Assembly: GCF_001730525.1 (NCBI RefSeq)
Contig: NZ_MDFN01000001.1
Location: 62,001 to 126,000 of the forward strand
DNA length: 64,000 bases
Direction of reading: 5' to 3'
DNA from: Arcticibacter eurypsychrophilus
Lineage (GTDB): Bacteria; Bacteroidota; Bacteroidia; Sphingobacteriales; Sphingobacteriaceae
The translations under genes and the position numbers were made by a program. Position 1 is the stretch's first letter, and each line of letters opens with the position of its first letter. The notes beneath the pieces were generated by a model that was not told where the DNA came from, ran no database searches, and saw nothing but the letters and a program-made list of their open reading frames with translations. Below, in pieces: positions 2 to 4,964 of this stretch.

Positions 2-481
2 TTTGATCATACTCATGAAGAACTACTGGGTATGGATAATCCGTTTTCACTAATTATTCTGGCAGCACAGAAGGCCCTGCTTGAAGGGAAAATACCGGAA
101 GAAGAATTAGGTGAAGAGCGGCTTACCATTGCCCGGACTTTAATAGACAGTGGTAAATATAATCATGAAAAAATTGCACGTTTTATCATCTTTTTGAAAA
201 ATTTGGTCTATATAAAAGATCCGAAAATTAATCGTATTTTTGATATAGAAGTAGACACCTTAATGGGAAGGAGCAACGTTATGGGAATAATAGAAACAAT
301 AAACGAACTGAATAGGGAAGAAGGTTTTGAAATGGGCCTTGAAAAAGGCCGTGTGGAGGAAAAAGCTGAGTTTACTAAAAATCTACTATCTTCAACAGAT
401 TTAAGCGTCTCAAAAATTGCTGGTCTGGTTGGTGTTACAGAAGATTTTGTGAGAGAAATCAGTGCAAGCTTAAAAATATAA
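2..481 (+). CDS. Rpn/PD-(D/E)XK nuclease family transposase-like protein, C-terminal part (5' end outside window)
   Basis: The frame is open to the left edge, reading FDHTHEELLG before the first internal ATG at 32, so the gene begins before the window. The visible 159 residues show NPFSLIILAAQKA followed by helical sequence, a Glu/Lys-rich stretch (EMGLEKGRVEEKAEF) and a small helix-turn-helix-like end (ISKIAGLVGVTEDFV type). This layout is that of the C-terminal half of Rpn recombination-promoting nucleases, which are abundant in Bacteroidota. The catalytic PD-(D/E)XK core would lie outside the window, so activity cannot be judged. No inverted repeat or target duplication is seen on this side. 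Confidence 0.6.
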   Translation, partial: FDHTHEELLGMDNPFSLIILAAQKALLEGKIPEEELGEERLTIARTLIDSGKYNHEKIARFIIFLKNLVYIKDPKINRIFDIEVDTLMGRSNVMGIIETINELNREEGFEMGLEKGRVEEKAEFTKNLLSSTDLSVSKIAGLVGVTEDFVREISASLKI

Positions 482-567
482 ATAAATTCTTAGCTCCAAC
501 CTAACCGCTTTAGGGTCATAATCCGGTAAATAAAATTGTTTATCCGATTCGTTTTCTGTAGTTATAG

Positions 568-575
568 TAGCTTTG
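568..575 (+). promoter_or_regulatory. Candidate -7 element TAGCTTTG for the efflux pump
   Basis: TAGCTTTG matches the Bacteroidota -7 consensus TAnnTTTG. It lies about 80 bp upstream of the MFS start. No convincing TTTG -33 element is at the expected distance, so this is a weak call. Confidence 0.3.
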
Positions 576-656
576 CGGGTATACAAATACCTTATTCAGT
601 CATCAGTTAATCTATTATGTAGTTAATTGTTCTGGTTATCCGCAACATTATCTTAA

Positions 657-1871: not shown

Positions 1872-2027
1872 TCTTTTAACATCTTGATTCATCTTTCACA
1901 TTGTGCCCTACTCCTTTTAGGGGTCAAATGTTTACAATTTATGATATAAAGTTTCTCACCTCGTGTTGATAAGATGAGGATGTTTAAGCGGGCCATTTTC
2001 ATTAGTCTTGCATCCGAACTCAAAAAC

Positions 2028-4130
2028 ATGATCAACTACGTTATAAAAAGAAATGGCGATTACGAGCCTTACAAAGGATACAAAATTGAAGACGCCATTG
2101 AAAAAGGATTTTTAAGCGTAGGTGTACTTTGCGATAAAGCGATCTATGCAAAAGTTTTAGCCGATCTGAAGACGAAAGAAGTGTGGACGGTAGAAGAGAT
2201 TCAGGACATTATTGAAAAGGAGCTTTTCGACAAAGGCTACTTTGAAGTGATGCGTTCGTTTATGATCTACCGGCATACACGCAAAATGCAAAGAACGCAT
2301 ATTGGTGGGGTGGATGAGGATACGACGTTTATAAACAGCACGCAAACAATTGAAGAATACATCAGTCAGACAGATTGGCGGATCAATGCGAATGCGAATA
2401 CCTCCTATTCCAATGCCGGTATGGTCAACAATGTAGCGGGAAAGGTAATCGCAAATTACTGGCTGGATAAGGTATATTCGAAAGAGGAAGGTTATGCACA
2501 CCGGAATGGCGATCTGCACATTCATGACCTGGATTGTTTAACCGGATATTGTGCTGGATGGAGTTTAAGGGCCTTATTGAATGAAGGTTTTAATGGAGTC
2601 CGCAGCCGGGTGGGCAGTAAGGCTCCTTCGCATTTCAGGGAAGCTTTAGGACAGATGGCCAATTTCCTTGGCATTTTGCAAAGTGAATGGGCTGGAGCTC
2701 AGGCTTTCAGTTCATTTGACACTTACCTGGCTCCTTATGTTTTTAAAGATAAGTTGAATTTTGAGGATGTATTGAAGGCGATTCGAAGTTTTGTATATAA
2801 TTTAAATGTACCGGCACGTTGGGGACAATCGCCGTTTACAAATATAACGATTGACTGGACGATTCCTGAAGATCTTAAAGGACAGATTCCAACACGAAAT
2901 GACCGTCATCTATTTGAAGGCAGTACAGACGAAAAGTTGATCCTGTATGCGAAAGAGCGTGGGGTAACCAACTTGTTGGATTTATGTTACGGTCATTTTC
3001 AACCTGAGATGAACCTCATCAATAAAGCGTATTATACAGTGATGACGGAGGGTGATTCAAACGGACAACCTTTTACCTTCCCTATTCCTACGGTAAACAT
3101 TACGGAGGATTTTGATTGGTACTCTGAAAATACGGATCTGTTGTTCGAGAACACGGCCAAAATTGGATCATCGTATTTCCAAAACTTCATTGGCAGTCAG
3201 TATATGCAGGATGAAGAAGGTAACCGGATAGAGAACCCTCAGGCTTATAAGCCAAATGCGGTGCGGAGTATGTGCTGCAGACTACAACTCGATTTACGCG
3301 AACTGTTAAAAAGAGGAAATGGTTTGTTTGGCAGTGCGGAGATGACAGGCAGTGTGGGTGTAGTCACTATTAATATGGCCAGATTGGGATTTCTATACAA
3401 GGGGAATGAAAAGGGTCTATATGGCCGTCTGGATTTATTGCTGACGATTGCAAAATCAACTTTAGAGAAGAAAAGAGTATTTATACAGGAAATGTATGAC
3501 CGGGGATTATACCCTTACACGAAAAGATATCTGAGTCATTTCAGGAACCACTTCTCCACCATTGGGGTTAATGGGATGAATGAAATGATCAGGAACTTTA
3601 GCTCAGATGAATACAATATTGTATCGGAAAAAGGAAAAACCCTTGCTTTGGATATTCTGGAATTCATCCGTAAGCGGATGACGGTATTTCAGGAAGAAAC
3701 GGGTAACCTGTACAATTTGGAAGCTACTCCTGCTGAAGGCACTACTTATCGCTTTGCCAAAGAAGATAAAAAACGATTTGAAGGAATTATTCAGGCTGGC
3801 GAAGACGAGAACATCTACTATACGAACAGTTCCCAAATTCCTGTAGATTACACGGACGATCCTTTTGAGGCGTTGCTGCTACAGGATGAACTGCAGTGTA
3901 AATATACGGGCGGAACGGTACAACATCTGTACATGAGAGAAAAATTAAGCTCTCCGGAAGCGTGCCGTAACCTGGTTAAAAAGGTAGTATCTAATTTTAG
4001 ATTGCCCTATATTACGGTGACTCCGGTATTTAGCATTTGTCCGGTTCATGGGTACCTGAATGGAGAGCATGAGTACTGCCCTACCTGTGATGAAATTTTA
4101 CTAAAAGAATTAAAAACAGCAAGCATATGA
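2028..4130 (+). CDS. nrdD: Anaerobic ribonucleoside-triphosphate reductase, large part (lacks the glycyl-radical tail)
   Basis: Class III ribonucleotide reductase, reducing ribonucleotides to dNTPs without oxygen. An ATP-cone lies at residues 1-90 (VIKRNGDYEPYKGYKIEDAI). The catalytic barrel has DLDCLTGYCAGWSL near 166 and a CCRLQLDLREL segment near 415. The C-terminal metal site CPVHGYL...CPTC is near 670-688. The start at 2028 (MINYVIKRNG) fits the family better than the upstream ATG at 1974, which adds 18 unconserved residues. The oddity is that the protein stops 14 residues after the CPTC site, before the glycyl-radical motif that every active NrdD needs. That motif is encoded in the -1 frame by the next ORF, whose ATG overlaps this stop (ATGA, 4127-4130). 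Confidence 0.93.
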   Translation: MINYVIKRNGDYEPYKGYKIEDAIEKGFLSVGVLCDKAIYAKVLADLKTKEVWTVEEIQDIIEKELFDKGYFEVMRSFMIYRHTRKMQRTHIGGVDEDTTFINSTQTIEEYISQTDWRINANANTSYSNAGMVNNVAGKVIANYWLDKVYSKEEGYAHRNGDLHIHDLDCLTGYCAGWSLRALLNEGFNGVRSRVGSKAPSHFREALGQMANFLGILQSEWAGAQAFSSFDTYLAPYVFKDKLNFEDVLKAIRSFVYNLNVPARWGQSPFTNITIDWTIPEDLKGQIPTRNDRHLFEGSTDEKLILYAKERGVTNLLDLCYGHFQPEMNLINKAYYTVMTEGDSNGQPFTFPIPTVNITEDFDWYSENTDLLFENTAKIGSSYFQNFIGSQYMQDEEGNRIENPQAYKPNAVRSMCCRLQLDLRELLKRGNGLFGSAEMTGSVGVVTINMARLGFLYKGNEKGLYGRLDLLLTIAKSTLEKKRVFIQEMYDRGLYPYTKRYLSHFRNHFSTIGVNGMNEMIRNFSSDEYNIVSEKGKTLALDILEFIRKRMTVFQEETGNLYNLEATPAEGTTYRFAKEDKKRFEGIIQAGEDENIYYTNSSQIPVDYTDDPFEALLLQDELQCKYTGGTVQHLYMREKLSSPEACRNLVKKVVSNFRLPYITVTPVFSICPVHGYLNGEHEYCPTCDEILLKELKTASI

Positions 4131-4297
4131 AAAACACTAAGATCCAGGAAGAATTGATTAAGAACGAGTCAAAAAGAAGTAAATGTTTGGTTTATACACG
4201 TGTGATGGGTTATCATCGCCCTGTGGAAAGTTTCAATATTGGTAAAAAAGCGGAGCATAAACAACGGATCCATTTTATTGAATCGAAGTGTGCCTAA
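4127..4297 (+). CDS. nrdD: Stand-alone glycyl-radical segment of NrdD (56 aa)
   Basis: A 56-residue ORF carrying the NrdD C-terminus: CLVYTRVMGYHRP then ESFNIGKKAEHKQR. Gly28 in RVMGY is the expected radical-bearing glycine. The ATG overlaps the stop of the large nrdD ORF as ATGA, suggesting coupled translation and one-to-one synthesis. A 22-residue charged N-terminus precedes the motif. The following nrdG start lies inside the last codons of this ORF. Alternative explanations are a programmed -1 frameshift, for which no good slippery heptamer is seen before the stop, or a sequencing error. The start codon exactly at the overlap favours a real separate gene. Confidence 0.85.
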   Translation: MKNTKIQEELIKNESKRSKCLVYTRVMGYHRPVESFNIGKKAEHKQRIHFIESKCA

Positions 4298-4964
4298 CCC
4301 GATTTACAATATAACTCCATTTACGTTACTTGATTACCCTGATAAAACAGCCTGTATCATTTGGTTCGCAGGTTGTAATATGAAGTGCCCTTATTGCTAT
4401 AATCCGGAGATTGTTCTGGGAAAAGGGAAGATAAGTTTTAGTGATTCGCTTACTTTTATTGAGAAAAGAAGAAATCTGCTCGATGGAGTGGTTTTAAGTG
4501 GCGGGGAATGTACCATGCATCATGGTATAGAACAATATGCTGCTGAAATTAAAGGCATGCACATGCTCGTAAAGATCGATACGAATGGCGGTCACCCTGA
4601 AAAGCTAAGAGCACTGATTCAAAGGAATCTGGTTGACTATGTAGCGCTGGACTTCAAATCATTATCCTCCGGGTTTGACAAAGTAACTAAAAGCAATCTT
4701 TTTGCACAGTTTGAGGAAAGTCTGGAGTTATTAATTGTTTCAGGAATTCCTTTTGAGGTGAGAACTACGGTTCATTCTGATTTATTAAGTGCACATGACA
4801 TTCAGGAAATGACGAGTTTTCTTAAGAAAAAAGGATACAAAGGAAATTATTATATCCAGAATTTTGTAGGGGATACTCCTACTTTAGGTGGTATGAACTA
4901 TTCTGTTCCTCTACATTCTGAAGATTTTGCGGGAGGCGACATGGAAATCGTTATACGGAATTAA
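4290..4964 (+). CDS. nrdG: Anaerobic ribonucleotide reductase activating protein (radical SAM)
   Basis: A radical S-adenosylmethionine enzyme that places the glycyl radical on NrdD. The cluster motif CNMKCPYC gives Cys29, Cys33 and Cys36 (CxxxCxxC) counted from the GTG at 4290; SGGE follows later, the SAM-binding segment. The start is uncertain: homologs begin close to NPIYNITPFTLLDYP, so GTG 4290 (224 aa) is preferred over TTG 4278 or TTG 4239. There is no ATG in the region. The start overlaps the 56-aa glycyl-radical ORF by 8 bp, so the three genes form one tightly coupled unit. A strong hairpin terminator follows. Confidence 0.9.
   Translation: MPNPIYNITPFTLLDYPDKTACIIWFAGCNMKCPYCYNPEIVLGKGKISFSDSLTFIEKRRNLLDGVVLSGGECTMHHGIEQYAAEIKGMHMLVKIDTNGGHPEKLRALIQRNLVDYVALDFKSLSSGFDKVTKSNLFAQFEESLELLIVSGIPFEVRTTVHSDLLSAHDIQEMTSFLKKKGYKGNYYIQNFVGDTPTLGGMNYSVPLHSEDFAGGDMEIVIRN

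Follow-up and report, generated by a model that had tools for sequence, protein, structure and literature searches.

Class III (anaerobic) ribonucleotide reductases (RNRs) are known as one-chain NrdD enzymes (TIGR02487/PF13597), such as those of Prevotella copri (8p23), Thermotoga maritima (4u3e) and phage T4 (1h7a), and to our knowledge the five distinct matching PDB sequences are all one-chain enzymes. RNR catalytic subunits encoded on two open reading frames (ORFs) occur elsewhere, as in NrdJab, the split class II RNR of Pseudomonas aeruginosa. Phage RNR genes are also split, through interruptions by introns, inteins or endonuclease genes, and a detached radical domain is unmentioned there in the passages checked (PMC3653736). 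Small stand-alone glycyl-radical proteins, GrcA (YfiD) and phage T4 Y06I, replace the C-terminus of pyruvate formate-lyase (PFL) cleaved by O2 (PMC8683613), which attacks glycyl radical enzymes at the glycine (PMC3019208, PMC8683613); validated spare parts are limited to PFL, although other glycyl radical enzymes were considered possible users of such spares (Andorfer et al. 2021, PMC8683613). Here we describe, in a 64,000-nucleotide stretch of Arcticibacter eurypsychrophilus DNA (contig NZ_MDFN01000001.1, positions 62,001 to 126,000; "the window" is this whole stretch), an nrdD whose radical part is a separate gene of 56 codons, the tail, lying between the nrdD core gene and nrdG. The locus shares with the one-chain enzymes the catalytic domain, the Zn site, the RxxGY loop and NrdG, and with the P. 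copri NrdD the ATP cone, and differs from the PDB NrdDs in its separate radical gene; like NrdJab and the split phage genes it spreads a catalytic subunit over two ORFs, whereas class and break point differ from those of NrdJab.

Given the variable frame and spacing of the two genes, their unlinked positions in two genomes, their re-fusions and the lone phage copies described below, we regard it as near certain from sequence comparison that the enzyme consists of two chains, as the initial annotation had suggested. We further consider it probable that this is a two-chain class III RNR whose tail acts in trans, may be replaced after O2 damage and is supplied as a spare by phages. The wider proposition, that throughout a large clade of at least three phyla (more by the titles of metagenome-assembled genomes, MAGs) an O2-labile, consumable 6-kDa radical subunit works in trans and is carried alone by phages of diverse hosts, as a spare that sustains dNTP synthesis of the host, seems to us evenly balanced between true and false.

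The nrdD ORF is open from 1974 (1974-4130, 718 residues), and alignment with relatives makes 2028 the likely start (700 residues). Its product matches NF006126 with 1070 bits and the ATP cone PF03477 at residues 22-104 of the 718-residue reading, and it ends in CPVHGYLNGEHEYCPTCDEILLKELKTASI followed directly by the stop codon. The tail ORF, offset by -4 relative to that stop and in the -1 frame, begins at the ATG of ATGA, contains KRSKCLVYTRVMGYHRPVESFNIGKKAEHKQR and has KRSKCLVYTRVMGYHRPVESFNIGKK. The NRDD profile PF13597 is matched from 2 to 528 of its 562 positions by the large chain and from 530 to 562 by the tail (E 1.4e-7); the two chains match complementary parts and so jointly account for a full NRDD domain, which is interrupted after the Zn site and before the strand preceding the radical glycine. 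In a Pfam scan of the tail with E up to 1, NRDD was the sole match, and no PFL-type glycine radical domain appeared. By the family alignment Gly28, the presumed radical glycine, is the counterpart of Gly711 of the P. copri enzyme (PcNrdD) and Gly580 of T4 NrdD; the Zn-binding role of C671, H674, C684 and C687 is likewise presumed through homology, and the finger loop has the double-Cys form among the motif classes described (PMC9669993, in the passages checked). The features of a class III RNR are therefore found here, namely the complete NRDD domain over core and tail, the RxxGY glycine, the finger-loop Cys, the Zn-site Cys and His and a downstream NrdG activase gene (TIGR02495), and the locus departs from the class in one point, the radical glycine and the active site not sharing a polypeptide, which makes it a two-chain variant. 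The initial annotation had read the locus in this way from the letters, with nrdD ending past its metal site, RVMGY in a -1-frame ORF of 56 codons and an ATGA overlap, and these coordinates were confirmed; its placing of the nrdG start within the tail ORF holds for both candidates, the TTG at 4239 from which the nrdG ORF is open and the likelier GTG at 4290 (by comparison with the L070 frame). Coordinates are collected in Table 1.

Table 1. Features of the two-chain nrdD locus in the window
Feature	Position	Strand	Remarks
nrdD core chain, 700 residues	2028..4130	+	ATP cone, catalytic barrel, Zn site; without radical glycine
MCCR finger loop, Met415-Cys-Cys-Arg418 (700-residue numbering)	3270..3281	+	double-Cys class III type; invariant in core alignment A1
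Presumed Zn site C671-x2-H674 ... C684-x2-C687, core C-terminal end	4038..4088	+	invariant columns in alignments A1 and A5
ATGA, tail-gene start overlapping the nrdD stop	4127..4130	+	sequence
Glycyl-radical tail, 56 residues, second chain of NrdD	4127..4297	+	PF13597 match and conserved core
Cys20, eight residues N-terminal of the radical Gly	4184..4186	+	invariant in the bacterial split tails examined
Gly28 of RVMGY, presumed radical glycine	4208..4210	+	79/79 distinct bacterial split cores
nrdG, radical S-adenosylmethionine activase	4290..4964	+	TIGR02495, 196.7 bits

The split recurs widely, far more often than chance would allow. NRDD was found in 33 of 301 genomes of the family and is split in 32 of them, 31 as two matches and one (G285) with the tail in frame past a stop; only G041, from the window's own genus, is fused. 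Of 400 genomes drawn from the order, 37 had matches, two of them partial, and in the class NRDD was present in 22 of 395 genomes, 11 split and 11 continuous, the latter being Bacteroidales-type or other kinds of NrdD (G685 among them with stops in frame). Among the best 80 of 571 relatives in a core-alignment scan of named genomes, 71 are split, four fused (L087, L088, L089, L123) and five undecided, two being cut inside nrdD (L069, L085) and three having no tail in the fetched DNA (L076, L078, L120). The split enzymes of this set come from Flavobacterium, Algoriphagus, Parapedobacter, Sulfurimonas, Sulfurospirillum, Campylobacter concisus, several Pseudomonas (P. aeruginosa being outside the set), Janthinobacterium, Acidovorax, Undibacterium, Methylococcaceae and Devosia, and from MAGs titled Thermoflexus, Acidobacteria, Actinobacteria, Zipacnadia and Elusimicrobia. 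The phyla are thus Bacteroidota, Campylobacterota and Pseudomonadota, with others through MAG titles; phylum names follow the record titles, and the record titled Thermoflexus (L093) groups with Betaproteobacteria in the tree and may be mis-binned. Tail matches were found in 20 of 229 genomes of Gammaproteobacteria, where one long-frame match that was read (L212) proved split, and in 109 of 249 genomes of Campylobacteria, 13 of them with more than one.

The small gene is already present in public annotation. In the five split plasmid records examined it is annotated as a reductase, in four with the gene name nrdD, while a sixth record, from Geoalkalibacter, is fused and only 41% identical. The NCBI Prokaryotic Genome Annotation Pipeline (PGAP) product "nrdD, anaerobic ribonucleoside-triphosphate reductase" of about 57-66 residues (e.g. 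WP_011154154.1) is the same small gene, under a name that implies the whole reductase and leaves the split and a subunit role unmentioned. The tentative remark in the initial annotation that such short ORFs are annotated elsewhere was thus borne out by the NCBI label nrdD and by a GenBank record calling the gene a reductase. Of the two features whose recurrence in Bacteroidota it proposed to check, the split recurs in family and class, and the exact ATGA overlap is not general, being present at 13 of the 108 split loci of the tree set; close relatives that are all continuous, which would have spoken against it, are absent, G041 being the only fused member of the family. Two side observations belong here. 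G1294 has two nrdD-tail-nrdG loci (L257, L258), in one of which nrdD itself lies in two overlapping frames. On the minus strand of L052 (G450, Bacteroidales) a 108-residue frame with a Zn site and an RVIGY radical loop lies near an activase-like frame and near apparently frame-shifted NrdD sequence; it was considered as a spare tail and rejected, being probably the C-terminal end of a second NrdD, of the L049 type, whose frame is broken.

Structure models place the tail where one-chain enzymes have their radical domain. The Sulfurimonas pair L072, read through its stop and modelled with a 28-row alignment, gave a mean predicted local distance difference test score (pLDDT) of 81.9, with 86, 80, 77 and 72 for the ten-residue blocks from 711 to 750 and 50 for the last four residues. 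In VIA-align, model residues 78..752 lay on residues 85..735 of P. copri NrdD including the radical domain (Z 32.7, root-mean-square deviation 2.6, 556 residues), and residues 123..736 superposed on 26..587 of T4 NrdD; with the P. copri entries in the deoxyadenosine triphosphate (dATP) state, in which the radical domain is disordered, the alignment stopped at model residue 664/665. The naturally fused L089 gave the same strand-Gly-strand-helix order, with a pLDDT of 72.4 from only 8 rows. The models show a predicted fit of the tail to the known radical-domain position, and do not imply binding of a free chain, the predictor having been trained on one-chain NrdDs. The PcNrdD radical domain is mobile and becomes disordered with dATP (PMC11226230, in the passages checked), which makes a detachable version plausible.

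Short tail genes without a large chain recur in viral records. A scan of IMG/VR with the tail (patterns YTRVMGY and ESFNIGK) gave 50 loci, 49 of them matching the tail profile, and at 47 of the 50 the tail is a short gene with no NrdD in the flanking DNA fetched. A second scan for Proteobacteria-type tails (E[VI]WTRVM and GY[HF]RP..) gave 79 short tail ORFs without NrdD among the best 80 of 128, and one locus (L287) with the tail in a longer frame, also without NrdD. Overall, 126 of 130 loci (the second set being the best 80 of 128) are short tail genes with neither NrdD nor NrdG adjoining, and NrdG was found at one of the 130 (L151, which also has NrdD); the first NrdG profile had one row apparently out of frame (L096), and a second, from eight other ORFs, some with non-coding lead-ins, recovered NrdG in all 12 loci previously positive. 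At least 3 kb of flank was available on both sides of 29 orphans of the first set and 33 of the second, some others lying near a contig end. A PF13597 search found no NrdD core in 30 and 32 chosen whole viral records of 13-183 kb, in which the tail was found in 29/30 and 32/32, with one weak partial match in G802. Many viral tails have PHROGs neighbours such as terminase, portal, tape measure, tail fibre, head-tail adaptor, head protease and DNA polymerase, while some flanking ORFs have no PHROGs match.

Lone tails also occur within cellular genomes. Ten of the 13 multi-tail Campylobacteria genomes were inspected (leaving out G1162, G1175, G1225 and the C20 pieces of G1197), and eight of the ten held, in all, ten orphan tails without NrdD or NrdG in the fetched flanks, which were usually 6 kb and shorter at contig ends in L254 and L255. 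Nine of these orphans neighbour a major head protein, tail fibres, tape measure, an internal virion protein or transposition proteins, the neighbours of the tenth (L259) having no PHROG match. Prophages with a lone tail are present in at least seven Campylobacteria genomes. All ten profile-found orphans keep the glycine, nine as RVMGY and L251 as RCMGY (read by eye), and the multi-tail genomes scanned, G835 among them, also encode their own split NrdD in nine cases of nine. A Rhodospirillaceae MAG of the Alphaproteobacteria (G835) has, about 2 kb from its nrdDG operon and on the opposite strand, a second lone tail (L203:8696-8902) between tRNA-synthetase-like and ClpB-like genes (named by eye), which is a candidate cellular spare part.

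The initial annotation had likened the split to PFL and GrcA, and the likeness stands for the phage and prophage orphans and falls for the bacterial operon. Like GrcA/YfiD and T4 Y06I, the NrdD tail is small, stand-alone and phage-encoded; GrcA, however, is PFL-type in sequence whereas the tail matches NRDD only, and GrcA serves as a spare for a PFL that is itself intact. The bacterial tail, by contrast, is the sole radical site of its enzyme, and a resemblance to spares is confined to the phage and orphan copies. Encoding apart from the enzyme, a mark of GrcA, is seen for the phage and prophage tails and in the Campylobacteria genomes G1150 and G1283, the window tail lying in the nrdDG operon; the second mark of GrcA, a parent enzyme that keeps its own radical glycine, is not seen, the core chain of split loci having none.

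In the mechanism we propose, a core of about 700 residues (80 kDa), with ATP cone, barrel with MCCR finger loop and Zn site, would be translated separately from a tail of about 56 residues, the two perhaps often coupled through overlapping genes. The strand, radical glycine and C-terminal helix of the tail would take the glycyl-radical-domain position over the barrel; once the tail is seated, NrdG would install the radical on it, and catalysis would proceed as in a one-chain NrdD. Since the bond between core and tail would be non-covalent, the tail could act in trans, and O2 cleavage at the glycine would cost a 6-kDa chain that a fresh copy could replace without remaking the 80-kDa core. Phages may carry the tail alone to keep or restore deoxynucleoside triphosphate (dNTP) synthesis of the host, and for phages that require dNTPs in microaerobic hosts the consumable part would bring the largest gain per base carried. 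The physical complex, its activation by NrdG, the exchange after damage and the phage role are what we infer from these comparisons.

Several observations weigh against exchange and phage-borne spares. In two viral loci (L151, L179) NrdD adjoins the tail, and viral records need not be complete, so that an NrdD elsewhere in a given phage is possible. The scan patterns contain parts of the radical motif, and conservation of that motif in the viral tails is therefore partly by construction. No lone tail was found by tblastn with four tail queries in 50,697 deposited phage genomes, where the matches were annotated NrdDs or an unannotated stretch (MT835493); the phage role thus has no support from a cultured phage so far, and this may be why the tail went unnoticed. 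Finally, several lineages re-fused, and the four re-fused genomes searched all encode a heme-copper oxidase as the split ones do, so that a need for the split under exposure to O2 is not obvious. In 44 chosen genomes searched for COX1 (PF00115), the oxidase was present in 29/29 split, 4/4 re-fused and 0/11 Bacteroidales-type fused genomes; the idea that the split goes with O2 exposure was dropped, the contrast resting on one deep phylogenetic divide and the re-fused genomes breaking the pattern. The window genome has two PF02867 reductases and heme-copper oxidases, so that NrdD would be its anaerobic option.

The main rival reading starts from the history of the two genes. In a quick LG+G4 tree of the core chain with 125 rows (108 split, 14 fused, 3 undecided), which has flagged long branches and a very distant outgroup and from which partial or duplicate rows had been dropped (L002, L021, L028, L053-L058, L069, L085, L088, L121, L125, L151, L179), ten continuous enzymes of other types fall outside the split clade, and fused forms are nested within it (L003, L123, L087/L089), from G041 (branches 97 and 96), a Desulfovibrio MAG, and Micavibrio and Megaira. 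Further fused forms occur in Campylobacteria (L261-L263). On this tree the simplest history is a single ancient fission followed by several re-fusions, and that these two genes were joined more than once is itself evidence that both form one enzyme. One old fission and several re-fusions are also what drift would be expected to give, and the re-fused genomes respire O2 as well; the split could thus be neutral, leaving a genuine two-chain enzyme with a permanent tail and no benefit from exchange, in which a phage tail would only raise the copy number. Against such a neutral fission stand the lone tails without a large chain, in 98 distinct viral core sequences, in prophages and in L203 near the ClpB-like gene, which suggest that the small part is used by itself, and we think it unlikely, though it keeps some real weight.

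Phages commonly inhibit host enzymes, and the phage tails could be inhibitors or decoys that occupy the host NrdD or NrdG instead of spares. In the first viral set Cys20 is missing from four distinct cores (one of them, L151, not an orphan), as such a role might allow, yet the radical glycine is kept by all of the profile-found Campylobacteria orphans, and the viral tails keep the motif too, though the scan patterns favour that; a decoy role is in our view quite improbable. Across 79/79 distinct bacterial split cores the invariant tail positions are R17, C20, R25-V-M-G-Y29, R31, P32, N37, G39, K40, E43, R47 and F50. Cys20 is kept in 90 of 97 distinct viral cores and in four of eight fused chains of the clade (kept in L003, L123, L261 and L262; lost in L087, L088, L089 and L263), the Geoalkalibacter fused chain having Ala at this position, and orphan viral tails without it exist too. 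Its losses seem to track covalent joining, and we therefore suggest that Cys20 may help to hold the tail on the core near the Zn site. For the ratio of nonsynonymous to synonymous substitution rates (dN/dS) on tails, the unsaturated pairs, 10 phage and 2 bacterial, were too few for use.

The arrangement of the two genes bears on whether the frames could be joined in translation. At the 108 split loci of the tree set, with tail starts chosen by script as the ATG nearest the nrdD stop, the tail uses frame 0 relative to nrdD in 26 cases, frame 1 in 55 and frame 2 in 27, and begins in overlap with nrdD in 47, 0-30 nt after it in 27, 31-100 nt after it in 20 and more than 100 nt after it in 14; between 38 and 1233 nt separate the nrdD stop from the radical-Gly codon. 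In L077, L082 and L258 nrdD and tail are about 0.8-1.2 kb apart. In two Campylobacteria genomes the genes are unlinked, NrdD lying at C1:104221 and tail with nrdG at C1:9453 in G1150, about 95 kb apart, and at C7:184710 and C7:63368 in G1283, about 121 kb apart; a tail-match scan of the 249 Campylobacteria genomes found no tail beside NrdD in either, and the enzyme there can only be two chains. Programmed -1 frameshifting or stop read-through into one chain would suit the -1 overlap of the window junction and the tails that lie in frame past a stop in some relatives (L004, L072, L090), but all three frames occur with variable offsets and gaps above 1 kb, two or three TAA codons separate the chains at the in-frame tails of L203, L252 and L128, and the genes are far apart in two genomes, which rules this out for the clade and leaves it scarcely credible for the window.

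A sequencing error or decaying pseudogene, conceivable from a single junction, is extremely improbable given the split in 32/33 NRDD-bearing family genomes and 71 among the best 80 of 571 named relatives and the near-invariant tails, so that an error is excluded for the clade by sequence recurrence, used in place of raw reads.

No description of a detached NrdD radical domain or a phage-borne NrdD tail was found in the literature searched, most subscription papers lying outside its scope; the passages checked were in PMC11528403, PMC9531940, PMC3019208, PMC2795772, PMC9669993, PMC3653736, PMC4390871, PMC2988022, PMC5645315, PMC7500135, PMC11226230, PMC8683613, PMC12288474 and PMC4493059. The split clade may, as a lead, be the RNRdb2 subclass NrdDd, with Rhodobacter capsulatus and Desulfovibrio desulfuricans as examples, for which a split is unmentioned in the passages checked (PMC4493059). 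The small gene is known to annotation pipelines, and its role as a phage spare part is possibly novel. If true, PFL would no longer be the only glycyl radical enzyme with a spare-part system, and the tail would be a previously unrecognised phage metabolic gene. A detachable radical subunit in many genera, some of them cultured, together with lone phage copies, makes the spare-part question directly testable; with a non-covalent tail, mixing of chains would give access to Gly-Cys radical transfer, to damage by O2 and to the allosteric disorder of the radical domain, and NrdD cloned alone from split-type bacteria would be without its radical site.

The unknown-function family phrog_4132 would gain a proposed identity as an NrdD-tail family, its profile positions 110-163 of 179 matching the tail in 5/5 tails scanned; about 110 N-terminal positions precede this tail-like part. 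In the Mu-like prophages at L249 and L253 transposition genes lie upstream of the tail gene, which may belong to the early region. Five viral loci (L177, L178, L180, L181, L182) have an in-frame TGA in the tail at the position of the N-x-G glycine of other tails, and their ORF coverage rises from about 25-37% to 76-93% once TGA is taken as a sense codon; these phages, by this sequence evidence, probably read UGA as glycine, as in code 25 of Gracilibacteria/SR1. Under code 11 the ORFs of L169 and L172 are all short, yet their tail gene is open throughout; together with L170, which shares this tail, they are possibly another recoded phage group.

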